IMG/VR virus record: IMGVR_UViG_3300042298_002143
Span: 1 to 21,881 of that record
Length of the DNA: 21,881 nt
Reading direction: 5' to 3' (one strand)
Source: a virus
Shown: positions 3,032 to 21,881 of the stretch, one piece after another
Numbering within the stretch: position 1 is the stretch's first letter
How the letters are laid out: the number at the start of each line of letters is the position of its first letter
Position numbers and translations under genes: made by a program
The notes under the pieces: generated by a model
What the model saw: only the letters and a program-made list of their open reading frames with translations
Database searches by the model: none
What the model was told of the DNA's origin: nothing

Positions 3032-4029
3032 GATCCACTAAATCCAAAATCGTCGCCAAGTTGTATCAATGCATTATCTGCAGTCGTAATTTTCTTAACT
3101 GCAGAACCGTTCACATGAGGTGCAATAACTGTGTTATCAGATCCTCTTGTAACTTTGAGTGTGTTTCCAGATATTGATTCTACATACATTTCTTCACTAT
3201 CAATTACAATATATGTTGCTGCAGAAATAGATGATGCATCAACAACATCTATAAAATTAGTAGTTGATAATGCATCAATATCTTGTGCAAGATTAGTTGT
3301 TACAGTACCAGTATAGTTCTTAGTTGCACGAGGTTCAACACTGTAAGAAAGATCTCTTGATGGACTTGAAGATTGATCTCCACCAATATATCCGATAGTA
3401 ACTTTTTTGATAATATCTTTGGATATATCTGCAACTGGGCCAAACAAGTATGTTTTGGCAGTAAATCTAAGAGTATAGTATAAAGATCTCCTAGTATTAA
3501 AATCACCTTCATATTCATCTCTCATTGTTATTCCTTCAAAGACAACTGGAATATCTCGTTTTTCTCCAATCGTTCTTACTAGATCAACCGATAATGTATA
3601 TGCTGGTTGAAAATATGGCAAAATTTGCTCCACAATTTGAAGCATATCATCATTTAATTTTGTATAGATTGCTAACTCAAAACTCATATTATATGGAACT
3701 GGCATATAAGTTTTTCTTGGTTTAGTTGTATCCGAAGCTAAACCAGAAAGAAATGTCTGAGTCGTTGTAACTTTTCTAGAAGGATCATAAGTTAAACCAG
3801 TAAATTCAAATGACATTCTTGGTAAAGAAATTTGAACTGGTTTGTTAAGATCGGGAACTTGTTCTAGTCTTGCTAAAAATTTCTGAGTGGGTCCATAAGC
3901 TAATGGAACTTTAATTACACTCGTTACATTATCAGAATCATTTGTGTGTTTGATTGAAATATCATTGAATATAGTACCAAACGCTACAATTGTACTCCTC
4001 AATATTTCGTGATAAAAATATTCAAACAT
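3028..4029 (-). CDS. 15: Tail completion and sheath stabiliser protein gp15
   Basis: gp15 forms the hexameric ring that caps the tail tube and sheath and joins the tail to the neck of the filled head. Residues 1-200 align well with T4 gp15: the start MFEYFYHEILR, the core FELAIYTKLNDDMLQIVEQ then ILPYFQPAY at residues 117-144 (T4 has YELSIFTRYEDDMFQIVEQ and ILPYFQPHF), and an RRSLYYTLRF strand near 180. T4 gp15 has 272 residues and this one has 333. The extra length is a C-terminal module at about residues 252-315 with VIDSEEMYVESISGNTLKV then TRGSDNT and H305, a motif also found in both giant proteins of the window. The ATG at 4027-4029 is the only start that keeps the conserved N-terminus. 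Confidence 0.95.
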   Translation of the reverse strand: MFEYFYHEILRSTIVAFGTIFNDISIKHTNDSDNVTSVIKVPLAYGPTQKFLARLEQVPDLNKPVQISLPRMSFEFTGLTYDPSRKVTTTQTFLSGLASDTTKPRKTYMPVPYNMSFELAIYTKLNDDMLQIVEQILPYFQPAYTLSVDLVRTIGEKRDIPVVFEGITMRDEYEGDFNTRRSLYYTLRFTAKTYLFGPVADISKDIIKKVTIGYIGGDQSSSPSRDLSYSVEPRATKNYTGTVTTNLAQDIDALSTTNFIDVVDASSISAATYIVIDSEEMYVESISGNTLKVTRGSDNTVIAPHVNGSAVKKITTADNALIQLGDDFGFSGS

Positions 4030-4075: not shown

Positions 4076-5455
4076 TTATGGTGTTCCAAATGGATTTGTC
4101 TCAGAAAAGTCTACGATTTGATCCGCTTCAGACTCAATTACATCATTTTGAGCATATCTATCGACATTATCATCAGTAAAATATATTCTCAGTTTATATG
4201 CAGCAGATGATCCAGCTCCAGTTATAACGTCACCATTAATAAAGTTTCCATTTATCTTATAAACATTAAGTTCACCTGTAGGAGCATTCCAAGATTTGAC
4301 TAATGCAGTCGTTCCACTGATACTTCCTGTAACAGTTTCTCCATGAATATAAGTGCCAACACCAGATGATGCTGGTGTTGCAATAGTAATAGTAGGTGCA
4401 ACAGTATATCCAGCACCGGCATTTATAATTCTAATTGAAGTTACAACACCAACAGTATTAATGTATGCTCTTGCAGTAGCACTAATGCCTCCAGCTGGAG
4501 CAGCAGGAATAGTAACGATTGGCGGAGTTGCATAACCCCCACCACCATTTGTTACTGTAATTACTCCAACAACTCCATTACCAATTGATGCCGTTGCAGC
4601 TGCCCCAGATCCACCTCCACCAACAAATACAATCCCAGGAGCAACAGTATATCCATATCCAGGATTTATAAGTTCAACTCCTTGAATCTTATTAGATGTT
4701 GTTCCATTACAATCCACAATAGTATCAATAAATGTTGCGACTCCAACTGCTGTTAATCCACCAGATGGTGCAGAAGAAATTGCAACTTGAGGTAGAGAAA
4801 TATATCCACGTCCTCTATTTGTTACAGTAATTAAACGTACAGCACCATTAAGTATTCCGGTAATCGCAGTTGCTGTAGTTCCAACTCCAACTAAATTTAG
4901 AGTTTGTGTATATCCATCGTTAAGGATATTATCATCAATTTCATCAACATCAGTATTGAGTTCTTCATCTTCATACCTGAAGAGTTCACATTTCAACTCA
5001 TAAACATAAGTTTTTTGTAATTGATAGAAAGGTTGCTCATGTTCTACAAATTTAATTTCAAACAATCTATCTCCAAGGGGAAACCAAATTAAATCACCCT
5101 CTTTTGGTCTCGTAGATAATTCAACATTTGGTCTATCTTTTATTAATGGTGTAATATAATTTTCAAATCGTTCTCTTGAAATTGTTACAGTTAAATCTGT
5201 TAAAGGTTGAATACCAAATTTGGAAAGTATTGTTCCTTGCCCCTCATATCCATCATAAGTATTAACATAAGCTTCGATTGGCAGTGCCTGGGTGAATTTT
5301 GATTCGATGACTTCTCTTATAACACTTTTTTTAGTAATATAACTTCTAGGGATATAATATATTTCAACTCCATACATACGAAGTTGTTCGTTAATTAAAT
5401 CTTGAATTAACGATTGTTCGGTTTTAGATCCTTGAAGAAAAAATGGATTAAGCAT
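4076..5455 (-). CDS. 14: Neck protein gp14 with a large repeat insert
   Basis: gp14 forms, with gp13, the neck that seals the portal and receives the tail. Residues 1-165 match T4 gp14 motifs: MLNPFFLQGSKTEQSLIQD, RMYGVEIYYIPRSYI, and PKEGDLIWFPLGDRLFEIKF then QPFYQL near 117-146. The C-terminal tail (VDRYAQNDVIESEAD, then SETNPFG) also parallels T4. Between them, about residues 185-425 form an insert absent from T4, which explains 459 residues against 256. The insert has four repeats centred on GY at residues 217, 268, 307 and 349, each followed by P and a short strand (ITVTNGGGGYATPPIVTI is one). A GETVTGSISGTTALVKSW module follows at 372-389. The ATG lies one base after the gene 13 stop (TAATATG), so translation is probably coupled. 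Confidence 0.94.
   Translation of the reverse strand: MLNPFFLQGSKTEQSLIQDLINEQLRMYGVEIYYIPRSYITKKSVIREVIESKFTQALPIEAYVNTYDGYEGQGTILSKFGIQPLTDLTVTISRERFENYITPLIKDRPNVELSTRPKEGDLIWFPLGDRLFEIKFVEHEQPFYQLQKTYVYELKCELFRYEDEELNTDVDEIDDNILNDGYTQTLNLVGVGTTATAITGILNGAVRLITVTNRGRGYISLPQVAISSAPSGGLTAVGVATFIDTIVDCNGTTSNKIQGVELINPGYGYTVAPGIVFVGGGGSGAAATASIGNGVVGVITVTNGGGGYATPPIVTIPAAPAGGISATARAYINTVGVVTSIRIINAGAGYTVAPTITIATPASSGVGTYIHGETVTGSISGTTALVKSWNAPTGELNVYKINGNFINGDVITGAGSSAAYKLRIYFTDDNVDRYAQNDVIESEADQIVDFSETNPFGTP
4370..4843 (-). repeat. Four GxGY-P protein repeats inside gene 14
   Basis: This part of gene 14 (residues about 205-362) encodes four diverged repeats of the form I-x-V/I-x-N-x-G-x-G-Y-x-x-x-P-x-V/I-x-I. 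The GY centres are 51, 39 and 42 residues apart. The DNA copies are diverged, so the repeats are old or fast-evolving and not a recent tandem duplication. Confidence 0.85.
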
Positions 5456-6688: not shown

Positions 6689-9600
6689 TTACGCAAGAGC
6701 AATAACTCTAAGGTCCTTTAATCTTGGTGGGTGGGCCATATCGGTTGATGATCCAATCAATTTAATACTAAAGTATCTAAAATCTGTCAGATTATTAGTA
6801 GTGAATGTATATTCTTTGTAATCTAAATTCTGACTCAGGTTGGCAAGATTATCAGTTTTTGCAATCTTGACATCAGATAATCCATCATTGTTTGCAGTAT
6901 TAATTACATTACCAAGACTGTCAAGATTATTATACCCTGGGAATGGATAGTAGATGGGTTTCTCCGTAGGATCGCCCAGAAGGGCATAGAATGCCCTTAG
7001 ATCGCCAATTCTGTTAACATATGCACTCATAATAACTTTCAGAGAAGATGCTGGAACTTCAAGTGCAATTGGATTTGATGCATAAACAAATGCTGATGGA
7101 TCGTCCTCAAGGGTAGAAACTCTAAAATCGGTTGCATAGTTTTCGATTGGACTATTTACTCTATTACTAATAAAGATTGCAGATACTCTATCCAAATCAA
7201 TAACTGGAGATACATTTCTGTCAAAAGTATCCATCTTAATATTCAGAGTAAATGATTTATTTCCTGGAAGTGTAGTTAAAGCAGAAGTCTCATTGACTGA
7301 TGCAGCTACAATTCTTGTGGAATTGAGATAATTGTTTGATGTCAGAGAAATTGGTTCATATCCTGCATCAGTATAAGATTCATCATTTCCATCGACACTT
7401 GAACCAGTTACTGTTCTAATCGAAGCAGAGAGACCTGTTCCAAGCAAGTTCATCGTTTGAATATTTGGTCTTATAATTTCGAAAGGAATGTTTTGAGTTG
7501 CATAAATGTTTGTTCCACCCGCAGATTTTGTTTCATTAATATAAAGTGGTGGGAATGAAGTTGCAACACTCCTATTAACTTGACCTTGTGGTAAAGATGC
7601 CGAATTACCAGCAGAACTTGAATCAATTTTCAGATAGTAATAGTCAAGATCAAAAGGCCTTGCTGAAGAGAACCCAACATCTTGAAGAGTGTGAGTTTTG
7701 TTAATTCTTCTAAGAGAAACACCATTTAATTCATATTTGAATACTGGAGTTCCAGCAGTATATGAGAAAGCTTTGGTTTGATCAATTTGTCTGGTAATTC
7801 CAGTCAGAGTATTTCCATTAACTCCTTGATATGCGATAATCTCATCACCAATTAAAACATATCCTGGATTTGTTGATGCAACACCAACATTTTCAAATGT
7901 AGAGAAATTAGATGAACTTACAAGTACAATGCTTCCAGAATCCTCTTTAGCATATGCAGCGTTCAATGTTGTAGGAGTTATGTCAGAATATGTTCCAGAA
8001 ATAACAACGTTGTTATTTAAGGCATACATACCATGGTTTTTATGATTTACCTTGATATGCAATCCATCAAATTCCTCAGAATCTACGGTTACATAACTTG
8101 CAGTTACCCCGCCACCATTCAAATTAGTGATCCCGATTCCAGATACAACATATGCAATTGTACTACCAGCACCAGTAGTGAAATTGCCTTGAACTTTATC
8201 AAGAATAATTTCATTAATGCCTGCTATTTGCCCAACAGAAAGTCTCAGATTGGATCCAAGAGTGCTTCCATTTAAACTGGATACACTCAGAACATCACCA
8301 ACTCGATATCCAGATCCTCCAGCACTAATCGTTGCTGCTGTAGCTACGTTTCCAGAAATTGTAATGTTTGCAGTTGCATTAACTCCAGATCCAGTTACAT
8401 TAGTCAAAGAAACTCCACTGTAAGATCCATCAGAGTAACCGATACCTGCATTTGTAATTGTAAGTGTGTTAGTTGCAGATCCAGCAGATCCAACATAATT
8501 GCCAGTTGCATTTGAATTTCTTTGGGAAACTGTAGTTCCAACAATAAAGTTTGTGCTAGTTACCGTAGTTCCTAATCCAATACGAATCTTTCTTGAATTC
8601 ATTTCAAGAGGATTCTTTAAAAGATTAGCAATTTGTTTGTTACCAATGTTGAGTTGTGGATTATAGAAATTAATATCCCCAACTTCATCAGTAAATACTG
8701 CTTGATATAAATTAAATTTCAGATCTTCATATTGGCTTGGAGTCCAAGTAGAAGCGTTTTGAGACTTAAATAATGAACCTAAAAGTGGTTGCTCGGTTAC
8801 AAATATTTGCTGAGATTCTGCTAACCCGGCGGTTGTCCTGTCTGGTTCACCGAGTCTTGAAATCCAAACTTGATATGAAGTTGATTCTGACAGAAGAACA
8901 ACTGCATGTTCTTCTCCACCTCTAAGATATACTGGAGATGGGAAAGTTACTGTTGTGACTGCACTACCATCATCGGAAATATTAACATTTGCAGGATCGA
9001 TCACAACTTCACTAAATGGATAAATTTCTGTGGTTGGCAGTCCAAGCTTCATCGAGCGAAGTTGTACTGTAACGGGCAGAGTATCATCTTTTGAGTTAAA
9101 ATATAAATCAATTTTAGTTACAAATAATCCGTTTCCATCAGGAAGTAAGAATGATTGTGCTAAAGGATCTTGCTGAGGTGCGGGAACTTGAACGAATACT
9201 TGCTGTACAATTGTGTTGGTCTGTACAATTGTGTTGGTAATGAATACTGGTTGAATTCTTGTAACCTGAGTATTTGATGATGTTGAAGAATTTGATTGTG
9301 TTCTGGAATCAGAAAGTGTAGTTGATTCAAAACGAGGACTTCTAACCGATGCAATAGTTTCTTGAATGTTATTTACAAGGCCTTGTGCATAATAATTTAC
9401 TTCACCTTCAGTGGAAACAGATCCTGGAACTAAAGAATTTGTTGGATTATTAGTTAACTTAAATGTCTTTACACCAGTTTCAAAAGTTGGATTTGTTGGA
9501 ACATTTGGATTTGGAATTAAATATGAACCAATGACTGTTCCCTGATTATCAGAAACCAATCTGACATTTGATATTGTTGCCTCTGCTCCACTTGTTAATC

Positions 9601-12600
9601 CTTTTAACTTAAGTCCAGTTGCAACTCTACCAAAGAATTGTCCTTGCGCTTGTTCGGAGAGACTTACAACATCAACATTAAGAATTGTTGAAGTTGCCGA
9701 ATAACCAGAAGCTAAAGTTCCGGTTACTTGCTGATCATATGGTGTTCGAGTATAAACATCAGTTGGAGCATTAAATGGACCATACTTGTGATTTGCAGAT
9801 GCGACTCTAAATGTAATTTCTGTTGGAGTAATCCCTGGAGTATTATTTTGATTAATTGGAGATGTTGCGAAACTTCCAGTTACAGTTTCTCCAACCTGGA
9901 ATATTCCAGATTCCATTGTAATTTCAAGAAGTTTTGGAACAATAAATGAATTAACATCTTCTCCATCAAAGAAAGCATATACTTGAGTGAATGGTCTAAA
10001 ACGTTTAGCAACAAACTCAACGTTTCTTGATCTCATAAATGTTATGAGTTCCGAGGCAACTAAGGAATCTCCTTGAGAAGTTGTTGTTACTTGCTCAGTG
10101 AGTTGTAATTGAGTTCCTGTTCTTCTTTGTTCTTCAGTTGTTGTAGTAGTGGTAAATGTTGTAGTGGCATCTCCAGAATCTTCTACTCGTTGTGTGGTGT
10201 CTGTTCCTGACCATGTTGTTTCCCACGCATTCCAATTTACTGGACCAAGACCTGTTTGTGGGTCAAATCCTTCAGCAGCTAATTGTTGTTGAGTAGCAGT
10301 AAAATTATCTTGCGATATAATTCTTGGATCTAATCTAACTTGATCAGTCCAAACATCAGATGATGGAGTTAACTCAATATTTCCAATGTAATTGGTTACA
10401 AGATATGGAGTTACATTTTCAATTCTCGTAGCATATGGTTGAGATAAGAAACGAGCTTCTGTATAATCTAATGTGATAACCTGTCCTGTTCTTCTTACAT
10501 TACTACCAATTAAATCTGTAACAAATCTTGAGTCTGCTGTAGGATCCACAGAAGCTCCAATTCCCACTAGTGACTTTGATCCAATTAAAAGATCAACTTC
10601 AGTACAATATGGAGATGGTCTTAATTCTTGATTTGTTGCGTCAATTGAATTTTTAATTTTTGTAGTTGTATTTTGTGTATTTAAATTTCTAAAATTATCA
10701 ACAAAAAATCCAGATTTAAATCTATCCAATCCATTTACATCTCGAATACTTAATGATTGTGTATTTGCTTCTAAAAGATTTAAAGTTGTATATGTTTCCA
10801 GATTTTTAATTCTATCTTCAAGTCTTGAGATATCTTTCATTTGATATCTCTTATGATTAAGAAGTTGAATAGATGCCTTATTTACATCGCAAAGATATGG
10901 TGGAAGAACTGCAGACGCAATTTCAAGTGCATCATCCAGTGCTTTTGGTGGTCTTGGAGTTTCTGCTGAATCTCCAGAAACAAGTTGAAGTGCTCCAGTT
11001 TTTGTGAGGAAAATGCGATCAATTCTTCCCAAATAATGGTTAAAAGAAAGAAGAATTGATTCATCGGAAGCAAGAATATTTCTCCCAGAATTTTGCGATT
11101 CTGAAAAAGTTCTTGATAAAAATTCAAAAGGAGAACGAGACCCAGCAGAAACGGAATACTGTGATACTCTTGGTCTAATATCTAAAATATCACTGTTTGC
11201 AACTCTTCCTTCTACGGGAGCTATATCACAATAATCAAAGTTGTCATAAGAATTTACTGTAGTAATATCTCCAAGATCAGATGATCCATAACTCGCAGAC
11301 TCAAAAATAATCTTAATTTGTTTTGCGGGTTCCTTTGTCAGAGGATCTCTTACAATTCTCGAATAATCGTAAATTGTATTTTTCTGAGCAGAATCTAATT
11401 TATAGTTTTCAGTAATGTTTTTATCAGATAAAGTAATTGATGAAACTGCAGCTTCAATTCCTGTTTCATCAAATAAAACAGTTTCATTTTCTTGGAAAGA
11501 CTTATCATTTAAGTAAACAAAATTGATTTTCAAATCATTTACTTTAGTTGTATAAATCGCTATCGCACCAGAAGTTTGACCAATAAAAGTTTCTCCAATT
11601 AATAGGTCTCCAGTTCTGTTTGTTGGACCTGTTAATGAACTAAAGGTAACCGAAGATAAATTCGCTTCTGATGTAGTGGTAGATTCAAACACCCCATAAA
11701 TTTTTGTTACATCTGGTACATTCAGACAAATTTCTTCGTCTTGTACTCTTGTTCCAAATGGGAACGTGCCATAGGTCAATCCATCATTAATTGTTGTTGA
11801 TCCAATTCCAGAATAATCATATTTTGACTTATTTACAATTAATGTGTTGATTCTATTTCTATTTTTAACTTTAGATTTTACATTGATTTTTCTTAATGTT
11901 GCAATTAATCTTGCACTACTATCATTAGCACCAAGGCCTCGAAGTGTTAATTCCGAAGAAGTTGCATTAAAAGTAAACTTATCTGCTCTTAAAGTTTCAA
12001 AAGAACCATCGGATCTTACTAATACATATCTTTCTTCGTCAAATGGTAAGAAAGTTTCATTTGTCGCTGCGGTCAGAGTATTTGATTGATTACTTGTAAT
12101 AGTAACTGCAAATTCTTTTTTAATAGTTAAATTTGATTCTGTGAGATCTACTGATTGTATGAAGTTTTTAGGTAATTTAGTGTATAATGTATTGTCTACC
12201 GATGTTTGAAAAGATGATCCAAGAATAGATAGGTCACTTACAGTTTTTGTAGTGGATGGAGGAGAACCCTCACAAATTCCTGTTACTGTTGCAACTCCAG
12301 TTACAACAATAGAATTTTGAGATACGCTTAAAACTTTATTATAAGTTGGAACAGTCGATCCAGAAATTGTGTACTGAACCAATCCTCCAATTTTTACATT
12401 ATTTGTAAACGCAAAATTACTATCTGCTCTGTCCAGACTAATACTACTAATACCTGTTGTAGATCTTGCGGTGATTGAAGCAAGTCCAACATTATAAGTT
12501 ATTATTGGAACAATATCTGCAGTAAATGAAGTAGTTGAAGTGCTAACGTTTGAGAGAGACTCAACATCTTGAATTGAATACTCAGTTATTGCTGTTGATA

Positions 12601-14197
12601 CCCTACTTGTTCCCTCCACTCCATTGAAAATGAATTTTTCATTTGCTGCAAAAGAACCCTTTACTCCATAAGCAGTAATAATTCCTGCATTGTTAACATC
12701 AAATCTCAGATATCCCGTTGCGCCACTTGCTTTACCTTTGATATGAATAGGAGTCGTAAGGGTTACATTTTGATTGAGTGTAATTTCAGTATAAGTTTCT
12801 ATATCAAATAACGCAATATCCCACTGATTGAGGTTTAAATTGGAAGTATTATAAGAACCAGATTCTAATGCATAATCATAAACTCTTGCAAGACCAATTT
12901 CTTTTCCTGAAAGAGCAGAAGATGCAACACCAACTCTAGAGTCTCTTAAAGATACAATAAATGGACTTCCAAGATTTAAATTTGGAGCTCCAGTTGCCCT
13001 GTTTACCGCAAACGTAGGACCAGTTACATATGCAATGCTTGCATCAGTAACACTCTTGGTTGATCTTGGTTTTTCAAAATCCAAGAAGTTTGCAGATAAA
13101 GACTCAACTTCATATCCTTTAACGAATGCTTTTCCAGCGCCAATTTTATATGTTGCTAAACTTTCTCTTGGTGTATTGTTATTATACGTTAGCGAATTTT
13201 CTTGAAAAATTCCACCATTTCCCAGATTATCATTTAAAGTTTCCTTTGCAGTTACATCAAAAGGTCTTACATAATAATCCCCAGATTCATCTGATGTTCT
13301 TCTTGCAAGTTCCGTTGCAAGAATATTATATTGGGAAGTTGTTGTAGTATTTTTAATTAATTCGCCATTTCTTATTTCCAATAATCCTACAAAATTATCT
13401 GCAGTTGTATCAGTTATTTCTTTCTTACTTAATAAGGCTGATACTTTAAATCTATCCGCTCCTGGAGCTGCATAATTTGAAAATCCTTGTGCATTATCAT
13501 TTAAGGTATCATCTTCATCTGATGTAACAGTCTCTTCAATTACATCAAATCCAACTTTACAACTTGTGATATTTGAATATGGATCTAAAATTAAAGTCTG
13601 ATCAGATACCTCAACAAAATACCCTCTTAAAAAATAAACTCCATTATTAAGAACTGCGGCTGATCCATTTCCTGTGGCATTGGAAGTTGTATTTGCAAAA
13701 CCTTCTCCACTTTGGATTATTACAGAATTTTCTGTATATGCAGAATTTAAAGTCAGTTTTTCATTGTCAGAAAATGTATTCTGGTCGTTCAAACCAGAAG
13801 CCAAATAATTTACATACAAGGTAGTATATTCATTTCCCAATTCATTTTGTGTTAAAACGTATACAATCTGAGCTTCTACTTTTGATTCGTCGCCAGTAAT
13901 TTTTTTGCCAACAAGATCATTGATATAAACACTAACATCTACTCCAAGATATGAATTTTCGATTTTAACAAATCTAAACTCATTACTATAACTCAATTGA
14001 CCCGGAATTACTACAGATCCTTCTTTAAAAACATGATTACCAAATTTTTCAATCTGATCTTGAAGAATAGATTGAAGCGTGGTTAATTCTCTAGCCTGAA
14101 CTGGATATCCAGGTTTAAACAAAACCTTATGATAATTCTTTGTAGAATCAAAATCATCAAAATATGGAGAAACGTTAAGATTAGTTGACTCTGGCAT
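6689..14197 (-). CDS. Giant DUF4815-type virion structural protein (2502 aa)
   Basis: I recognise the N-terminal domain as DUF4815-type: at residues 21-67, NYHKVLFKPGYPVQARELTT, LQSILQDQIEKFGNHVFKEG. Near 1114-1150 is the family motif MKDISRLEDRIKNLETYTTL then NLLEANTQSL, a probable coiled coil. A Thr-rich linker (TTTFTTTTTTEE) lies near 1345. FMRSRNVEFVAKRFRP then VYAFFDGEDV (about 1385-1415) and DPLAQSFLLPDG then LFVTKIDLYFNSKD (about 1675) are motifs shared by many marine phage tail proteins. GxGY units sit near 1910-1975 and an RG-type module near 2106-2157. The C-terminus ends PPRLKDLRVIALA. The gene occupies the T4 gp9-gp12 interval, so I infer an outer baseplate or short-fibre-like role. 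There is no signal peptide or enzyme motif. The start is six bases after the gene 8 stop. Confidence 0.9.
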   Translation of the reverse strand: MPESTNLNVSPYFDDFDSTKNYHKVLFKPGYPVQARELTTLQSILQDQIEKFGNHVFKEGSVVIPGQLSYSNEFRFVKIENSYLGVDVSVYINDLVGKKITGDESKVEAQIVYVLTQNELGNEYTTLYVNYLASGLNDQNTFSDNEKLTLNSAYTENSVIIQSGEGFANTTSNATGNGSAAVLNNGVYFLRGYFVEVSDQTLILDPYSNITSCKVGFDVIEETVTSDEDDTLNDNAQGFSNYAAPGADRFKVSALLSKKEITDTTADNFVGLLEIRNGELIKNTTTTSQYNILATELARRTSDESGDYYVRPFDVTAKETLNDNLGNGGIFQENSLTYNNNTPRESLATYKIGAGKAFVKGYEVESLSANFLDFEKPRSTKSVTDASIAYVTGPTFAVNRATGAPNLNLGSPFIVSLRDSRVGVASSALSGKEIGLARVYDYALESGSYNTSNLNLNQWDIALFDIETYTEITLNQNVTLTTPIHIKGKASGATGYLRFDVNNAGIITAYGVKGSFAANEKFIFNGVEGTSRVSTAITEYSIQDVESLSNVSTSTTSFTADIVPIITYNVGLASITARSTTGISSISLDRADSNFAFTNNVKIGGLVQYTISGSTVPTYNKVLSVSQNSIVVTGVATVTGICEGSPPSTTKTVSDLSILGSSFQTSVDNTLYTKLPKNFIQSVDLTESNLTIKKEFAVTITSNQSNTLTAATNETFLPFDEERYVLVRSDGSFETLRADKFTFNATSSELTLRGLGANDSSARLIATLRKINVKSKVKNRNRINTLIVNKSKYDYSGIGSTTINDGLTYGTFPFGTRVQDEEICLNVPDVTKIYGVFESTTTSEANLSSVTFSSLTGPTNRTGDLLIGETFIGQTSGAIAIYTTKVNDLKINFVYLNDKSFQENETVLFDETGIEAAVSSITLSDKNITENYKLDSAQKNTIYDYSRIVRDPLTKEPAKQIKIIFESASYGSSDLGDITTVNSYDNFDYCDIAPVEGRVANSDILDIRPRVSQYSVSAGSRSPFEFLSRTFSESQNSGRNILASDESILLSFNHYLGRIDRIFLTKTGALQLVSGDSAETPRPPKALDDALEIASAVLPPYLCDVNKASIQLLNHKRYQMKDISRLEDRIKNLETYTTLNLLEANTQSLSIRDVNGLDRFKSGFFVDNFRNLNTQNTTTKIKNSIDATNQELRPSPYCTEVDLLIGSKSLVGIGASVDPTADSRFVTDLIGSNVRRTGQVITLDYTEARFLSQPYATRIENVTPYLVTNYIGNIELTPSSDVWTDQVRLDPRIISQDNFTATQQQLAAEGFDPQTGLGPVNWNAWETTWSGTDTTQRVEDSGDATTTFTTTTTTEEQRRTGTQLQLTEQVTTTSQGDSLVASELITFMRSRNVEFVAKRFRPFTQVYAFFDGEDVNSFIVPKLLEITMESGIFQVGETVTGSFATSPINQNNTPGITPTEITFRVASANHKYGPFNAPTDVYTRTPYDQQVTGTLASGYSATSTILNVDVVSLSEQAQGQFFGRVATGLKLKGLTSGAEATISNVRLVSDNQGTVIGSYLIPNPNVPTNPTFETGVKTFKLTNNPTNSLVPGSVSTEGEVNYYAQGLVNNIQETIASVRSPRFESTTLSDSRTQSNSSTSSNTQVTRIQPVFITNTIVQTNTIVQQVFVQVPAPQQDPLAQSFLLPDGNGLFVTKIDLYFNSKDDTLPVTVQLRSMKLGLPTTEIYPFSEVVIDPANVNISDDGSAVTTVTFPSPVYLRGGEEHAVVLLSESTSYQVWISRLGEPDRTTAGLAESQQIFVTEQPLLGSLFKSQNASTWTPSQYEDLKFNLYQAVFTDEVGDINFYNPQLNIGNKQIANLLKNPLEMNSRKIRIGLGTTVTSTNFIVGTTVSQRNSNATGNYVGSAGSATNTLTITNAGIGYSDGSYSGVSLTNVTGSGVNATANITISGNVATAATISAGGSGYRVGDVLSVSSLNGSTLGSNLRLSVGQIAGINEIILDKVQGNFTTGAGSTIAYVVSGIGITNLNGGGVTASYVTVDSEEFDGLHIKVNHKNHGMYALNNNVVISGTYSDITPTTLNAAYAKEDSGSIVLVSSSNFSTFENVGVASTNPGYVLIGDEIIAYQGVNGNTLTGITRQIDQTKAFSYTAGTPVFKYELNGVSLRRINKTHTLQDVGFSSARPFDLDYYYLKIDSSSAGNSASLPQGQVNRSVATSFPPLYINETKSAGGTNIYATQNIPFEIIRPNIQTMNLLGTGLSASIRTVTGSSVDGNDESYTDAGYEPISLTSNNYLNSTRIVAASVNETSALTTLPGNKSFTLNIKMDTFDRNVSPVIDLDRVSAIFISNRVNSPIENYATDFRVSTLEDDPSAFVYASNPIALEVPASSLKVIMSAYVNRIGDLRAFYALLGDPTEKPIYYPFPGYNNLDSLGNVINTANNDGLSDVKIAKTDNLANLSQNLDYKEYTFTTNNLTDFRYFSIKLIGSSTDMAHPPRLKDLRVIALA
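9203..9238. repeat. Perfect 18-bp tandem duplication in the DUF4815 gene
   Basis: The 18-base unit CTGTACAATTGTGTTGGT occurs twice in direct, perfect tandem (9203-9220 and 9221-9238). It is in frame and encodes TNTIVQ twice on the minus strand, in the low-complexity Ser/Thr/Gln-rich linker just before the DPLAQSF domain. Perfect identity suggests a recent slippage or duplication event. Confidence 0.95.
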
Positions 14198-14203
14198 GAT
14201 TTC

Positions 14204-15757
14204 TTAGAACTGCAAAATTACCTTGATATCTTCTTTTTGACTAGATGATCTTGTTACAGAAGGTCTATTATCTACATGGATAATATTTCCAGAATATTTT
14301 TGAACTTCTGGATTTGAAACTCCATTTGTAAAAGTTTGACCAAAATAATATGTCCTACTATTTATTGTGGTAGTGAGACCAGTAAAATTGGTGTCAATTG
14401 TTAAATTAACACTTCCTCCCTGAACAATAGTTGTGCCGCTTGCTCCCACAGAGGATGTAAATCTATTCAGACCAAATCCATAGATTGGAGTTGTATCTTT
14501 TGTTCCATCTGTATTGAATCCAGATAAAGTTCTATCCTGCCAATACTTAAGAACACCTGTAGTCTGATCATAAGACACAACTTTACCTACAGCCGTGGAA
14601 CCAACTCCAATAGTTTGAGAAACTAAACTGTCGGCAACAAATGTTGCTGTACTATAACCTGTTCCAACAAGTTTTAAAGCATATACTGCACTTGCTTTAT
14701 CTTCAGTCAAAATAGAACTTGAACTGTATGCCAAAGGATTTTCTATAACACCAACTCTAGCAATTTGGTTACCAGTTATAAAATCTGGATTTTGGGTATC
14801 ATTTTCAATTCTTGTGTAAAGACAAACTCTATTTGCTCCAAGTTCTCTATAAATGTTTGCACCATGTCCACCTTTTGGGGGAATAATGACATCGAAAACG
14901 GGAGATGTTGTTCCGGTAGGAACATTTCCCGTTACTAAATCAACTGTTCCAAAAGTATAACCAGAACCACCACTCGAAATAGTAATTGATTCTATTTTTG
15001 AATTATTGTTTACAACAATTGTTGCTTCGGCTCCAGATCCATCACCCTTTATAGGAACTCTTGTATATGTTGTGTTTGCTGTTCCAATTCCTACTCCACG
15101 ATTTGTAATAGTGACAATCTTTAACTGTCCACTGGTAGCAGCATTATTTCTAACTGCAGAATCTTCGTCATTGGTTTCCCAATTCTTTGGAACGGGAATA
15201 AAATTAGAAGTATCAAATTTAACAATATCGCTTGGAGTGATTGTATACAGATATTTCCAGATATATCCATCACCACTTGTTCCAGCGGATCTTGGTTCTA
15301 AATCAGTGAAAGTTGGTTCATCAAGAGATGGTCTTCCTTCGGGATTTTCTGGGTCAGTTCCATTTTGGAGGCAAATATATACACGAAAATCACTATTTAC
15401 AACATAAAAATTTGCAGCGTATAAACTGGTAACTCCAGAGGGTTTTGAAGTATTGGTTCTACTTATATCATGTCTATACATATCATAAGTTGTTCCAGAA
15501 CTCCAGGTTATTTTTCTCACCACCTGTTTCATATTTTCTGGAGATATTTTTTTAAGTGCTATGGCAGTATCCCAATAACCATTTTCTTCATCAAAACTAT
15601 CTTTTGGCGCAGGTGGATTTATATCCCAAGTTGAACTAGAATCTGTTGGATTTGGGAGACCTACAAAAACATAATATGAGTTAACTGTAGAACTTGCTGC
15701 AGAAACAAAATTCTTAGCACTTAGTATTCTAAACTGGTCTGTTATAATAGCGGCCAT
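14204..15757 (-). CDS. 8: Baseplate wedge protein gp8, enlarged
   Basis: gp8 is a wedge component that links gp7, gp6 and gp10 in the T4 baseplate. The 517-residue protein keeps the T4 gp8 landmarks: an N-terminal ITDQFRILSAKNFVSA (T4 has a comparable VTSKFRTEKMLNFYNS), YICLQNGTDPENPEGRPS (127-144), GDGYIWKYLYTITPSDI (162-178; T4 GDGYVWEYLFEIPPDV), and the C-terminal GNIIHVDNRPSVTRSSSQ with KEDIKVILQF at the end (T4 GEMIYMENRPPIIMAMDQ, then EEINILFTF). T4 gp8 has 334 residues. Most of the extra sequence lies at about 210-300 (two GxG-type units, one ISSGGSGY) and 375-470. The ATG at 15755-15757 follows a late promoter overlapping the previous stop. No strong Shine-Dalgarno sequence is visible. 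Confidence 0.93.
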   Translation of the reverse strand: MAAIITDQFRILSAKNFVSAASSTVNSYYVFVGLPNPTDSSSTWDINPPAPKDSFDEENGYWDTAIALKKISPENMKQVVRKITWSSGTTYDMYRHDISRTNTSKPSGVTSLYAANFYVVNSDFRVYICLQNGTDPENPEGRPSLDEPTFTDLEPRSAGTSGDGYIWKYLYTITPSDIVKFDTSNFIPVPKNWETNDEDSAVRNNAATSGQLKIVTITNRGVGIGTANTTYTRVPIKGDGSGAEATIVVNNNSKIESITISSGGSGYTFGTVDLVTGNVPTGTTSPVFDVIIPPKGGHGANIYRELGANRVCLYTRIENDTQNPDFITGNQIARVGVIENPLAYSSSSILTEDKASAVYALKLVGTGYSTATFVADSLVSQTIGVGSTAVGKVVSYDQTTGVLKYWQDRTLSGFNTDGTKDTTPIYGFGLNRFTSSVGASGTTIVQGGSVNLTIDTNFTGLTTTINSRTYYFGQTFTNGVSNPEVQKYSGNIIHVDNRPSVTRSSSQKEDIKVILQF

Positions 15758-15773: not shown

Positions 15774-15781
15774 TATTTATG
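15774..15781 (-). promoter_or_regulatory. T4-type late promoter, CATAAATA (7/8)
   Basis: The minus-strand octamer CATAAATA differs from the T4 late consensus at position one only. The TAA stop codon of the giant upstream gene (15777-15779) lies inside it, and the gene 8 ATG follows 16 bases later. It probably starts the transcript carrying gene 8, the DUF4815 gene, the two small genes, 13 and 14, since the junctions from gene 8 to 14 are overlaps or gaps of at most six bases. Confidence 0.5.
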
Positions 15782-18700
15782 ATGAGTAATCTCGATACTT
15801 CAGAGGAAGTAATCTTTGAACTGTTGGTGATGTTGAAATTCCTGCAAGACCATTATTGTAAACTATAAATGATTTTGGATCTGCTCTATTTAATTGACTA
15901 ATTCTACCCCAACTATATTCACCATAAAAACTGCTAAATCCAAATCCTGAAAGTCCATTATAACTTGTTAAACTTACAGTTACTTTAGCAACATAAGTAA
16001 GTCCAATTCCAGGAACTCCAGTCTGTGCAATAGAAACTGCAGCTACTTCATAAATATTATCAATAAATGTACTACCAAGTCCAACTATAGTGCCATCTGA
16101 TCGACGTGATGTGACACCTTTACCAACATTAGAATTGAAAACCTTAAAATAGTAACCAGTTTGAATTCCACTCACTCCAGTAGTTGCAATTCCGACAGAA
16201 TTAATATTTAAATCTCTTAAGAATGAGTTTGTAGGAATAAACAAGTCAAGAATAATTCCAGTTGAAGCAACTCCAACTGATGTTGTTTTAATTCCAGTAA
16301 TAACTCCAAAGTCGCCCGAATATACAACATTTGTAATCAATTCACTAGTTACTGATGGAAATTCAATCAAAACTTGTGGTGGATTTGTTGAAGTATATCC
16401 ACTACCAGAATTTACAACACTGATAGAAGTTACTATACCGCTGGTTATAGATGCTGATCCAGAAGCCCTAAATGTAGTTCCAAGTCCGACTGGATTTGAA
16501 ATCGTTACTTCTGGTGCGGTAGAATATCCCTTTCCACCATTACTAATAACAATTGAAGAAATTGTACCTGCAGCAGATACGACAGCGGTTGCAGCAGCGG
16601 CCACTAAAGTATCTTGAGATGTTATGATTACTTTCTTTGGATCAGTATTCGCAAAAGCATATTCATTAGCACTATCAAAAAATGTCTTGACACTCTCTAC
16701 AAAAATTACAGAGGAAGTAACTCCAACACTTTGAATAATATTTGTAGTCGGTTGAATAACTGGTTCGTAAAGAACTCTATTTTTTCCAATTTCAACTCCA
16801 TCAATAATTTTATCTTGAGTTTGATAACATAACGTAACTGGTCTAATTAGACTTTGATTTAAACTAAGACCTGGATTAAAATAGGTATTTGTTTTGGCAT
16901 TATTGCTGGAAAGAATCTCAGATACTATTCTTTCATTTTCAATTTGATCAATAGTATCACCAATTATAGTCAGTCCATCTCCAACTTCAATTGGTTCTAT
17001 AATATCAACAAAAGTTACATCAACTTCACCATTACCTTTATAGAAAAGAATCTTTGAAGTATCCTCTGGTTTTGGTGGTTCTGGGAAAGTTATTGAACTT
17101 CCTCCAGAAAATAGATATCCCTTTCCAGGAACTTGTAAAATATCATTAATGAAAACCAATAATGTGGATTGAATATCAATTCCAGAACCAACTCTAGCTC
17201 TAATAGAAGTTAAAGTATCATTAATTTTTAGTGGGAACACCGTGGTCTCACCATCAAATAGCGAATCAAAAGGATCTATTACTTGAAGATCTCCGATAGA
17301 TAATCCAGAGAAACTATCTGTGAAAGTTCTATCAACAGTAATTTGGAACTCACTGAATGTTAGGGCAATATTTGTAGGAATTCCTACAGTTCCTCCGACT
17401 CCAACAGTAAGAATTTGTCCTTGACCATAAGAATATCCAGTATTTTTAATTTCAAAAGTGATTACGCTTGATCCTTGGCCAACGACAATATCAACGGTTG
17501 CTCCACTTCCAAATCCAGTTGGAGATGAAGAACTATAAACTAAAGGAATATTACTATATGATAATGGAGCATCAATAACAACTAATGGAGGATTTGATGA
17601 AGTATATCCAACACCGGGGTTTGTAATTGCAATACTCACAATTCTACCTTTATTTGTTGTAGACGTTCCAATTGATGCAACACCAACATAAGTAATATTT
17701 GGAGTTCCTGTACTTTGTGTGATAACTCCAACTCGAACCGTTGGTTGAGATCCTGATCTATATCCAGAACCACTATTTCCAATACTAATAGATTGAATAG
17801 TTCCAGCCACAGAAACAATGGCCGTTCCTCCAGCACTTACTAGTGGTTGATAACCAAATCCAGCAGTAGATCCAACTGAAACAATAATACCAGATCTTGG
17901 TAAAGATGTTGCATTAATATCATAAGATTGAGTTTGAGTTCCTGTGAAAGTAATTGAAGTAATACCAGCAGACTCAGAAAGGTCATAATTTCCAGAAACT
18001 AAAACTGATCCTGTGGATCTTTCTGGACCTTGGAAAATTTGATTTACTAAGACGATTGCATTTGATGTGCTAATTCCAGTAATATTGGATCCCTCAGACT
18101 TTAATGTAAAAACACTATTCGAACCATTAAATGATCCAGAAATGTCATCAAAAACTTTATTATAAAAATAAGTATCATCAACTGAGTTGACATTACCTGA
18201 TTTTAAGAAAACTCTTCCACTAAACGTAGATCCAGTAATCAATCCAACATAATCTTGTTCATCTCCTCTATCAGATACACTAGTAAATGGAACTTGTCCA
18301 TATGGAGCAGTTGAGAAATAAATGGTATTATTATCAATATTATAATTTCCGTTCAGTTTTGTAATAAGACTACCAGTGCTATGCGTACTAATTCCAGTTC
18401 CCAACCATCCTCGTTGAACAATTGCAACATTTGTAGATCCATATCCAAGAGTTTCAATTAACATAATTTCATTACCAATTTTTATCATATCCCCGGTAAA
18501 GAATGATGTAATTCCAGATAATGTCACTAAATTGGTTATTTCTCCAACAAAACTAGAAGTTATCGTTGTAACTGCTGTAGATACGATAGGAGACTGAATA
18601 ACGTTATCGATTGATATTAAAGTTTTTGCATTTTGTTTTTTAGATCTGAAGACGTGTGAAGTTCCAATTCCAACACTCGTAATATCAAATGTTACTGCTG

Positions 18701-21700
18701 GTGTTGATAAAGCATCAGCTGCAGATTTTGCAAATTTTGCGTATAAGTTATCAGATTTGACAGCATATATGGTTCTTGGAAGTTTATCGGTTGTTCCTAC
18801 ACCAACGGAAGTGGTTGCGATTCCAATAGCATTAATTGAGGTTGTGTCTGATGAAGTATATTCATAAGAAATTTCTTCTCCAGTTACAAAGAAATGTCCA
18901 GGAATTTTAACTGCGTTTAAACTTAAATCAACAATACTAGAATCAGATCCTAATGCATATCTTTCAAAAATTGGGAGTTGATTGCTTGTAAGATTAAATT
19001 CTTTTTTCGTGGAAACTAAAGTTCCTTCATAAGATCCATTTCCAGAAGCAATCGATGCATTATTCAATGATATTTCTCTGGTAAAATTATTTCCTTCAGA
19101 TGAATGAACCGACTGCTGGAAGACTCTTACTTGTGCTTCAATGTTTGCATTTGGAGTAAAGTGTAGTCGGGTGTTATCTCCAACTCTTTCAATTGTAAAA
19201 CTTCCAAGATCTCCGTCTGTTTGTACAAATCCAAATTCTGACACATAAGCATTTGATTGATTTTTAAGAGAAACTAACTCAGACATTTGATATTGTTGAT
19301 TTGTCAAGTCCTCAACAACTGCAATATAGTATGCAGCATCTCCAGTTAATGAAAATTCAGAAACCGTAGAAACTCCTGGTGCTGTTGATGAAGCAATACT
19401 TGTCAATGTTGAGGTAAGGAAACTATCATACATGACAGTTGTTCCCACTCCAACTGCAGATGAATTTGCAATTGAAACGCGAACAGTATTTACAAAGTGT
19501 GCTGTAGATAATCCAACATCTGGAGTTAAATCAATGTTTAAATTGGATCCAGACAAATACGCATTGTATGTTCCAATTCCTGGTGAACTGAAAGAAGATA
19601 AGTTACCAGTTGTTAACTGCCCATATTCTAAGAACTCTACATCAGTTCCATTATGGAGAACGCTAATTTCATCGACTTCATAGAAAGAACCATCTGTTGC
19701 TCCAATTACAACATAAACTTTAGAAGCCCTATACGTAGATGCAATTCCAACAATTGTAGTTGCAGTGCTAACACCAACAGGAATCGTTACAGTTGAAGAT
19801 TTAATATTGACAATATTTCCAAGGTTATACTCTCCAGTAGATGTAACAACATCGGAAACATTAATACTTGAAAATGAAATATCATAATTATTTTCTTCTG
19901 TAAAAACTGGATAAAATACTAAAGCTCCTTCAGTACCAGCGATACTAAAATCAAAGGTTCCCAAATCATCTTGATTGAAAATTTTTCCATATTGATTCAA
20001 ATAACCAAAATTATTGTCGTGAAGTAATGATGTCAATAGTACTTGATTTTGTTCTGGTAAAACTAAATCTCTTACAAATGTAATATATTTTCTATAACGA
20101 TTATCGGATAATGTAAATGCGTCAATCGTTGAAAACGGAGTTGATCTAGGATTACTATTAAATTGTGGAGAAAGATCATCAATATTAAGAACCCTATTTC
20201 CAACCGACTCAAAATAATCTTGTAGAATCGCTGAATTGAAGTTAATTTGATTTGAGGCAAATCTATTACTAACAAAAATATTATTTTCTGTTACAAGATC
20301 AAAATCTGATATACAGTGAGTATCGATTGTAGAATCCAATTCGGCCAAAGTGGCAATTTCCATTTCTGCGGTTGTTCCAATTCCAATTGAATCTGGAGAA
20401 GATACAACTTGAAGATCTGCAAATTTTTTAAATCCTGCGGGGTGATTTAAATCATCTACTACATCATCCCAGTCACTAAATGGAGTATTTGTTTTGATAG
20501 AATATGAAAAATATTGATAGTAATCATTATCTGCAATTTTTTGAAGATCATTATTTAAAAATCCGGTTTGCTGTTGCCAACCTTTTTTAACTATTGAATT
20601 TGATTTGACATTATAGATTGAATCAAAACTAATTACTCGATTAATTACGGCCTCAGTTTTAGAAGATTCACCGACTAAAGTATCACCTTGCACAAATCCT
20701 TGATTTGTAGAGACTCTTACGGTATTATTATTTTCATCCCAATTTTCTATAACTCCACTGGATGATTGTGAAAATACATTTTCTCCATCAAAAAATTCAT
20801 TTCTTTGATACTCAATTGAAAATGATGGAAGATCTCTTTCCGCAATTATTCTTCCTGCAGAATTAATTGGATCATAGTTTCCTGGAATTTCTGTTAAAGA
20901 TAGTCTTCCAGTTAAGTTATAGGAAACCGTTGCTCCAATTCCACCAATATTTGGATCTATATTGACAATTGTAAAGGACTCATATCCATAGGCTTCTGAA
21001 TTATATCCTTTGGCAGTCGATCCAATACCAACACTAATATTTTCAATTAAAATTTTATCTCCAATTGCAAAGGGGAAATCTGCGACATTACTAAAACTGG
21101 ATCCAAGTGTTACGACAACATCTTTACTTGCAGAAATAAATCTAATCGTACTGATTCCAACACCATTACTATTGTTTATTGGAAAAACTATTGAAGTTTC
21201 TTTATTGACAGATCTTGAATTTTTTAGAATAGAAACTTGAGTATCTCCAAGATTATATTCTAAATCAACACCTTGATCAATTTCTCTTGTTAAACGATCA
21301 ATAACAATTAAGTCTGGTGCTACAATATAGTTTCTTCCAACTGAAGTAACTCCTATGGATTTAATTGAAAATAAATTGTTTACTTCTAAAATTTCTGGAA
21401 TTTTTGCTGTTGGCCTTAAACTTAAATCTGAAGGATAGTCAAATCCAATATCTTGAATTTCAACTCTATTAATAGACCCAATACCAGTGCCATATGGAAC
21501 TAAAACTGCATTTGTTCCAATACCTGTTGTTATTGATTCAATATATGGAAGAGTTCTATATGATAGACCTTTTGATTTTAATTTTGCTTGATGAATTGGA
21601 CCATAAGCAGTTCCGGATGTAGTTTGATATTTCAATTCCCCATTGGAGGATGAATAACTTGATGCCTCTGGATAACTTAAAATTGTATATGCAAATTGAG

Positions 21701-21881
21701 TAGATGATGTAGAAACAATCTCATAGGTTCCAGAATATAAACTTGTTACAACTCCAGGAAGAACTGAAACTTTAACAGAATCTCCTATTTCAAGTCCATG
21801 AGTTGCAGCAAGAGAAACTGTGACTAAATTTCTAGTCGTTGTTCCTTTTAAAGTATTTTGATAGTTTGTAGTAAAACTATG
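15777..21881 (-). CDS. Giant virion structural protein in the gp7 position (5' end outside window, at least 2034 aa)
   Basis: The frame is open to the right window edge. A TTG at 21633-21635 could be read as a start, but 82 further in-frame codons upstream (including HGLEIGDSVKVSVLPGVVTS) read as the same beta-rich protein. From the edge, visible residues 430-463 hold GWQQQTGFLNNDLQKIADND then YYQYFSYSIK, a segment familiar from cyanophage giant structural proteins. About 592-929 holds three tandem copies of a domain of about 120 residues. An RG-type module lies at 1127-1177, an FDDISGSFNG unit near 1243, a DPFDSLFDG unit near 1535, and five GxGY-type units lie between about 1360 and 1840. 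I find only two cysteines. It sits directly upstream of gene 8, the T4 gp7 slot, but I cannot show homology to gp7. A baseplate or fibre-attachment role is inferred. Confidence 0.88.
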   Translation of the reverse strand, partial: HSFTTNYQNTLKGTTTRNLVTVSLAATHGLEIGDSVKVSVLPGVVTSLYSGTYEIVSTSSTQFAYTILSYPEASSYSSSNGELKYQTTSGTAYGPIHQAKLKSKGLSYRTLPYIESITTGIGTNAVLVPYGTGIGSINRVEIQDIGFDYPSDLSLRPTAKIPEILEVNNLFSIKSIGVTSVGRNYIVAPDLIVIDRLTREIDQGVDLEYNLGDTQVSILKNSRSVNKETSIVFPINNSNGVGISTIRFISASKDVVVTLGSSFSNVADFPFAIGDKILIENISVGIGSTAKGYNSEAYGYESFTIVNIDPNIGGIGATVSYNLTGRLSLTEIPGNYDPINSAGRIIAERDLPSFSIEYQRNEFFDGENVFSQSSSGVIENWDENNNTVRVSTNQGFVQGDTLVGESSKTEAVINRVISFDSIYNVKSNSIVKKGWQQQTGFLNNDLQKIADNDYYQYFSYSIKTNTPFSDWDDVVDDLNHPAGFKKFADLQVVSSPDSIGIGTTAEMEIATLAELDSTIDTHCISDFDLVTENNIFVSNRFASNQINFNSAILQDYFESVGNRVLNIDDLSPQFNSNPRSTPFSTIDAFTLSDNRYRKYITFVRDLVLPEQNQVLLTSLLHDNNFGYLNQYGKIFNQDDLGTFDFSIAGTEGALVFYPVFTEENNYDISFSSINVSDVVTSTGEYNLGNIVNIKSSTVTIPVGVSTATTIVGIASTYRASKVYVVIGATDGSFYEVDEISVLHNGTDVEFLEYGQLTTGNLSSFSSPGIGTYNAYLSGSNLNIDLTPDVGLSTAHFVNTVRVSIANSSAVGVGTTVMYDSFLTSTLTSIASSTAPGVSTVSEFSLTGDAAYYIAVVEDLTNQQYQMSELVSLKNQSNAYVSEFGFVQTDGDLGSFTIERVGDNTRLHFTPNANIEAQVRVFQQSVHSSEGNNFTREISLNNASIASGNGSYEGTLVSTKKEFNLTSNQLPIFERYALGSDSSIVDLSLNAVKIPGHFFVTGEEISYEYTSSDTTSINAIGIATTSVGVGTTDKLPRTIYAVKSDNLYAKFAKSAADALSTPAVTFDITSVGIGTSHVFRSKKQNAKTLISIDNVIQSPIVSTAVTTITSSFVGEITNLVTLSGITSFFTGDMIKIGNEIMLIETLGYGSTNVAIVQRGWLGTGISTHSTGSLITKLNGNYNIDNNTIYFSTAPYGQVPFTSVSDRGDEQDYVGLITGSTFSGRVFLKSGNVNSVDDTYFYNKVFDDISGSFNGSNSVFTLKSEGSNITGISTSNAIVLVNQIFQGPERSTGSVLVSGNYDLSESAGITSITFTGTQTQSYDINATSLPRSGIIVSVGSTAGFGYQPLVSAGGTAIVSVAGTIQSISIGNSGSGYRSGSQPTVRVGVITQSTGTPNITYVGVASIGTSTTNKGRIVSIAITNPGVGYTSSNPPLVVIDAPLSYSNIPLVYSSSSPTGFGSGATVDIVVGQGSSVITFEIKNTGYSYGQGQILTVGVGGTVGIPTNIALTFSEFQITVDRTFTDSFSGLSIGDLQVIDPFDSLFDGETTVFPLKINDTLTSIRARVGSGIDIQSTLLVFINDILQVPGKGYLFSGGSSITFPEPPKPEDTSKILFYKGNGEVDVTFVDIIEPIEVGDGLTIIGDTIDQIENERIVSEILSSNNAKTNTYFNPGLSLNQSLIRPVTLCYQTQDKIIDGVEIGKNRVLYEPVIQPTTNIIQSVGVTSSVIFVESVKTFFDSANEYAFANTDPKKVIITSQDTLVAAAATAVVSAAGTISSIVISNGGKGYSTAPEVTISNPVGLGTTFRASGSASITSGIVTSISVVNSGSGYTSTNPPQVLIEFPSVTSELITNVVYSGDFGVITGIKTTSVGVASTGIILDLFIPTNSFLRDLNINSVGIATTGVSGIQTGYYFKVFNSNVGKGVTSRRSDGTIVGLGSTFIDNIYEVAAVSIAQTGVPGIGLTYVAKVTVSLTSYNGLSGFGFSSFYGEYSWGRISQLNRADPKSFIVYNNGLAGISTSPTVQRLLPLKYRDYSS
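17030..18155 (-). repeat. Two copies of a 'FDxxxxFDG/FNG' domain in the giant gp7-slot protein
   Basis: Copy one (about 17940-18155) has FDDISGSFNGSNSVFTL then AIVLVNQIFQGPERSTG. Copy two (about 17030-17280) has DPFDSLFDGETTVFPL then TLLVFINDILQVPGKGY and SSITFPEPPKPEDTSKI. The shared order is FD-x-x-x-x-F-(D/N)G-x-x-x-V-F-x-L, a variable turn, V-(L/F)-(V/I)-N-x-I-(F/L)-Q-x-P, and then a G-S-type strand and an I-T-F strand. They are separated by GxGY-type repeats. Confidence 0.75.
19095..20105 (-). repeat. Three tandem domain repeats of about 120 aa in the giant gp7-slot protein
   Basis: Three diverged copies lie in a row: about 19855-20105 (starts KYITFVRDLVLPEQNQ), 19456-19740 (starts KVYVVIGATDGSFYEVDE) and 19095-19345 (starts YYIAVVEDLTNQQYQMSE). 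Shared landmarks are an opening V/F-x-x-D or V-x-I strand, a hydrophobic-LHN or LKN turn, then EYG, QYG or EFG, then L-G/S-S/T-F, a hydrophobic turn, and a final L-x-F/L-x-P strand. The spacing between copies is about 365-395 bases. Confidence 0.8.

Follow-up and report, generated by a model that had tools for sequence, protein, structure and literature searches.

The window analysed here, a 21,881-nucleotide stretch of DNA from a marine T4-like cyanophage, carries the gene of the neck protein gp14 within a T4-type gp13-gp14-gp15-gp16 gene order (Table 1). By its Pfam match, the fold of its core, and this gene order, gp14 is a T4-type head closure protein (Hc2). PF11649 (T4_neck-protein) matches residues 2-176 with an E-value of 1.1e-32 and 113.9 bits against a Pfam cutoff of 25, and phrog_460 (head closure Hc2) matches the protein with an E-value of 7.6e-133. 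The solved T4 gp14 aligns by sequence with residues 2-171 (E 1.2e-28) and weakly with the tail (residues 427-449), the core fold superposes on T4 gp14 9lu4 with Z 11.5 over 123 residues at 3.5 Å, and Foldseek pairs the core with T4 gp14 9mkb at E 6.2e-10. These matches bear out an earlier note on this DNA, which had described the N-terminal core and the C-terminal tail of a T4-like gp14 as both preserved, with the agreement being weak at the tail; its remark that the neck is usually a compact, conserved ring is uncontradicted, as the ring itself is kept in gp14.

The protein thus shares with T4 gp14 (PF11649, phrog_679; PDB 9mkb, 9lu4-9lu7) the ring core, the C-terminal arm, and the order of the surrounding genes, and differs from it in the stretch between core and arm, which measures about 25 residues in T4 and about 246 in the window. 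T4 gp14 is assigned to phrog_679 and cyanophage gp14s to phrog_460, a family whose annotation consists of its name alone, of which the window protein is a plain member, and in many of whose members the repeats described below are present.

Table 1. Neck genes of the window and the features mapped within gp14
Feature	Position	Strand	Basis or remark
gp15, tail sheath stabiliser, 333 aa	3028..4029	minus	extra segment at residues ~238-315
gp14, head closure Hc2 / neck protein	4076..5455	minus	single unbroken frame, 459 aa
gp14 C-terminal arm, residues 429-459, DFSETNPFG motif	4079..4171	minus	counterpart of the T4 gp15-binding arm
Inserted beta-barrel, remainder, residues 368-428	4172..4354	minus	AlphaFold2 model, fold match, profile
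GxGY repeat 4, residues 333-368	4352..4459	minus	repeat profile, 43.8 bits
GxGY repeat domain, residues 191-366	4358..4885	minus	AlphaFold2 model of residues 189-368 alone
GxGY repeat 3, residues 293-326	4478..4579	minus	repeat profile, 32.1 bits
GxGY repeat 2, residues 253-287	4595..4699	minus	repeat profile, 37.9 bits
GxGY repeat 1, residues 203-235	4751..4849	minus	repeat profile, 42.0 bits
Inserted beta-barrel, first strand, residues 183-189	4889..4909	minus	AlphaFold2 model and gp7 fold match
gp14 T4-type ring core, residues 1-176	4928..5455	minus	PF11649; T4 gp14 structure match
gp13, head-tail adaptor Ad2, 281 aa	5457..6302	minus	without T4 fibritin-binding domain III

The extra segment of gp15 (3085-3318; IDSEEM..SISGNTLKVTRG) lies ahead of the acidic C-terminus and is present in S-SM2, S-SCSM1, S-P4, S-PRM1, and Sf-FS3 and absent from P-SSM2, Syn33, S-CAM1, S-H34, and DSL-LC02. 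A 453-aa protein at 528-1889 carries an N-terminal Mtd_N (major tropism determinant) domain (E 3.2e-8) and may be a receptor-binding or fibre protein. A 2502-aa protein that matches phrog_358 over its full length (6689-14197) separates gp8 from the neck genes and stands roughly in the place that runs from gp9 to wac in T4.

Anatomy of the gp14 insert

The earlier note had placed an insert of about 240 residues, rich in beta structure and bearing four GxGY-P repeats, at 4181-4903 (residues 185-425). The repeat profile, the AlphaFold2 model, and the comparison with T4 all confirm its presence, with the insert as modelled covering residues ~183-428 (~246 residues) between a helix at 171-180 and the conserved C-arm; its treatment as one segment does not hold, as the insert is predicted to consist of two nested modules, a beta-barrel (183-189 and 368-428) and a GxGY domain that interrupts it. 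The full-length model, built with 91 homologues, reached a pLDDT of 79, most of residues 191-366 exceeding 90, and a pTM of 0.51, a value too low to fix how the insert is oriented against the ring. AlphaFold2 prediction of the insert gave a confident beta-structured GxGY domain plus a small barrel, and the GxGY domain modelled alone (residues 189-368) had a pLDDT of 93.3 and a pTM of 0.84.

The best fold match of the barrel is a domain of a T4-like gp7 (9f4a, residues 767-848), with Z 8.7 over 74 residues at 2.4 Å; barrels of the aIF2-gamma type also match, with Z of about 5.8. The two phage barrels share a fold at 12% identity, and they differ in that the gp7 domain is one contiguous stretch of 82 residues whereas its gp14 counterpart is split across residues 182-431 by the GxGY repeats. 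The barrel is likewise uninterrupted in the gp14 of S-PM2, S-SM1, S-CAM1, and S-P4. Because the barrel is contiguous in gp7 and because repeat-free gp14s exist, we read the GxGY domain as a nested insert in the loop that follows the first strand of the barrel.

The GxGY motifs of gp14 start at residues 215, 266, 305, and 347, and the repeat profile gave its units 32-44 bits, compared with a best score of 7.3 bits among 280 shuffled window proteins; since the profile was trained on the gp14 units, these four scores match partly by construction. Outside the training set, the gp7-like protein of the window has four GxGY repeats scoring up to 31 bits, and gp8 has the repeat once or twice. The barrel module, too, recurs in the gp7-like protein, at residues 358-410. 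Both baseplate genes are enlarged, the gp7-like protein (15777-21881) to over 2000 aa compared with 1032 in T4 and the repeat-bearing gp8 (14204-15757) to 517 aa.

Searches of solved structures with the GxGY domain returned no good match: Foldseek reached E 0.56 at best, the top VIA score was Z 3.6, to a filamin Ig-like domain, and the best hit of an HMM comparison was HCF-1 at E 0.076. On these weak scores an assignment to a known solved fold was set aside; the lack of a structural match does not prove that the fold is new. Pfam and profile searches matched no lectin or carbohydrate-binding domain within the insert of the window gp14.

Distribution and turnover among relatives

We compared 390 complete gp14 genes in 130 clusters at 85%, a sample drawn with five cyanophage queries and thus not a census. 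All Kyanoviridae gp14s examined have at least the small beta-barrel at this site, with GxGY repeats nested in the barrel in most clusters. An insert is standard in cyanophage gp14s, and the idea that it is peculiar to the window phage was rejected on the 130 clusters. Outside the cyanophages, T4 and five other T4-like gp14s (KVP40-like, the Ackermannviridae Dickeya phage Ds20CZ and Vibrio phage BX-1, Vibrio phage K447, and a Campylobacter phage) all lack the insert, with 46-76 aa between the core and the tail motif. The earlier note had held that an equivalent segment in every T4-like gp14 would undo the idea of a decoration, and the alignment found it in none of these six.

In the cyanophage genes of this sample the same stretch spans about 105-915 aa, within which we distinguished a class with the barrel only (105-116 aa), the Syn33 type (~195 aa), the window type, to which most clusters belong (259-309 aa), a class with up to 8 motifs (350-467 aa), and the Sf-FS3 type (571-578 aa). 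About two thirds of the clusters have the window-type insert, in which the GxGY/P positions are nearly invariant. In these sequence comparisons the stretch from core to tail motif has changed more quickly than the core itself, as mean pairwise identity is 0.66 for the core, 0.41 for the GxGY domain, 0.42 for the barrel, and 0.55 for the tail, and identity in the GxGY domain falls below that of the core in 99.8% of pairs. Even gp14s whose cores are 94-96% identical may be ~80 or ~195 aa apart in the length of this stretch: the gp14s of S-P4 and L169 have cores 95.7% identical, the former without and the latter with repeats, and those of L285 and L317 differ in a block of ~195 aa despite cores that are 94.1% identical.

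In the Syn33-type gp14s, the sequence alignment places the repeats apparently in another loop of the barrel, inside its first hairpin, suggesting that repeats entered the barrel independently at least twice. A tree of the N-terminal core, a quick tree with long branches in which the deep joins are unsure, gives the class with the Laminin_G domain one origin (support 98) and has the expanded classes arise several times. In Sf-FS3, residues 322-448 of gp14 match Laminin_G_3, a ConA-like lectin domain, with E 2.9e-7, which passes the Pfam cutoff; of three further gp14s of its clade that match the domain, one (E 3.8e-8) passes the cutoff and two fall below it.

Giant inserts occur in the gp14s of L305, L308, and L311 (1021-1109 aa) and L332 (895 aa), which contain further stretches with no Pfam match; a ConA-like reading of the long inserts of L305 and L308, made by eye, was unsupported by Pfam and is not claimed. 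The annotated gp14 of DSL-LC02 (L098, OR032571.1) starts well within the gene, and the upstream frame appears interrupted in the record. Matching proteins in the Tenacibaculum phages PTm1 and pT24 (BFVD A0A5S9C1A0, 619 aa and named a neck protein, and A0A1W7GKQ7, 552 aa) could represent a separate instance of neck-protein enlargement. A BLAST search of phage genomes with the GxGY domain returned 23 records, a count from which the spread of the domain is unreadable, as the low-complexity filter probably masks the repeats. The gp14 family is already known as phrog_460, and the literature searched held no description of the insert or of the GxGY repeat fold.

Probable exposure and putative role of the insert

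The external position of the insert is strongly implied by the comparisons. A buried insert is very unlikely because the GxGY domain is nested in a domain loop, the region reaches up to 915 aa, the ring cores are conserved, and one clade bears Laminin_G_3; there is, moreover, no room for six copies of an insert of that length in the DNA channel or between tightly packed ring subunits. Burial in the ring core, which the earlier note had named as fatal to its decoration idea, is therefore not plausible. That idea survives in part: an exposed insert is strongly implied by size, nesting, and turnover, and the whisker-like form is not supported, as the insert is predicted to fold into compact beta domains and not into a coiled coil. 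GenBank marks the 482-aa insert-bearing gp14 of S-SCSM1 as a 'virion protein', and the virion proteome of that phage is reported as measured (PMC9602691). Cryo-EM of S-PM2 revealed no collar (PMC2984593); since the S-PM2 gp14 (292 aa) is barrel-only, this is neutral for the repeat-bearing phages. Detection of gp14 in the virion of S-SM1 (PMC3037559) likewise concerns the barrel-only form (308 aa).

In T4, domain III of gp13 (190-239) binds fibritin and the C-arm of gp14 binds gp15 (PMC12270204). Just 9 of the 50 T4 domain-III positions aligned with the window gp13, and the domain is missing in all six Kyanoviridae gp13s aligned, whereas it is retained in the KVP40-like gp13. Domain III has also been lost in two phages whose gp14 lacks the insert, Vibrio phages K447 and BX-1, so a missing dock alone does not track with possession of the insert. 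Of the window proteins that were scanned, none matched a fibritin family, in agreement with the earlier note's statement that wac fibritin is absent from the window. A review of 2010 reported that none of the cyanomyovirus genomes available at the time had wac, and it mentioned one unpublished isolate with whiskers (PMC2984593). By the missing dock, the negative scan, and the published absence of wac, the place that fibritin fills in T4 is vacant here. T4 fibritin and the insert share a location at the neck; fibritin is a coiled-coil trimer seated on gp13 domain III, whereas the insert is predicted to be all-beta in a phage that lacks the dock, and homology of the two was ruled out on these grounds.

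On balance we favour the reading that gp14 of the Kyanoviridae displays an external barrel and a modular GxGY domain, set in the linker between the ring-forming core and the gp15-binding C-arm, as a scaffold for low-affinity contacts. By homology with T4, six gp14 per neck would place six copies of the insert around the head-tail joint, with their modules facing outward. The barrel, which every examined Kyanoviridae gp14 has, would probably be a structural part of the neck-tail joint; the GxGY domain nested within it would probably serve for display, supporting accessory contacts with the surface of the host or with fibres that are folded back. Adhesion is plausible by analogy, and accessory surface contact is favoured because of the lectin clade, the modules held in common with baseplate proteins, and the precedent of the lactococcal 936 phages, in which carbohydrate-binding modules at the neck bind host cells (PMC6669499). 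Those modules resemble the insert as variable domains displayed at the neck, one of them shown to bind host cells, and differ from it in belonging to a separate collar protein of a siphophage and in having other folds. Against a display role count the window's own insert, which matched no lectin or carbohydrate-binding domain, the adjacency of the insert to the segment corresponding to the T4 gp15-binding arm, and the barrel-only Kyanoviridae (S-PM2, S-SM1), which do without repeats.

The main rival to the display-scaffold reading is a structural brace, in which barrel and repeats, packed on gp13, gp15, or the uppermost sheath ring, would make the joint stiffer or control it and would have no contact with the host. 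We consider a brace conceivable and rather improbable: the insert lies ahead of the arm used for gp15 binding in T4 virions (PMC12270204), the barrel is universal in the examined family and its fold is kin to a baseplate gp7 domain, and gp15 in some of these phages likewise has an extra segment, but 0 to 8 repeats, blocks of ~195 aa, and a lectin domain beside near-identical cores are more variation than a load-bearing contact should allow. Unlikely, too, is neutral bulk, whereby a tolerant exposed loop gathers mobile repeats through recombination with gp7/gp8 and fibre genes under no selected function; repeats common to several structural genes, the viability of barrel-only phages, and the patchy expansion on the core tree agree with it, and retention of the window-type insert with near-invariant GxGY/P in some two thirds of clusters suggests maintenance instead. 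We give little credence to an assembly checkpoint, in which the insert would cap or steer gp14 before the tail docks, as E. coli Hfq caps T4 gp14: T4 gp14 binds Hfq beside the C-arm, which is disordered until tail docking (PMC12270204), and the insert occupies the place of that binding, yet barrel-only gp14s exist and insert length turns over. Scarcely credible is a genuine whisker, or a replacement for fibritin, by which retracted long tail fibres would be held or sensed; the absent wac and the lost gp13 dock leave room for one, but the insert is predicted as compact all-beta domains and not as a long trimeric coiled coil.

Returning to the display scaffold, a bolder version that we advance only tentatively would make the GxGY repeat an unsolved beta fold used as an interchangeable scaffold across neck, baseplate, and fibre proteins, with the six gp14s as side-mounted accessory adhesins, some of them lectin-bearing, that replace fibritin. 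The barrel-only S-PM2 and S-SM1, the repeat-bearing P-SSM2 and S-SCSM1, and the lectin-bearing Sf-FS3 provide a comparison set, and the confidently predicted GxGY domain is one for which no match was found among solved structures. T4-like cyanophages, abundant in the sea, have neither fibritin nor several of the fibre genes of T4, and little is known of the accessory contacts they make with the host. A fast-evolving, modular, and probably exposed domain on a conserved neck protein is a concrete candidate for such contacts.
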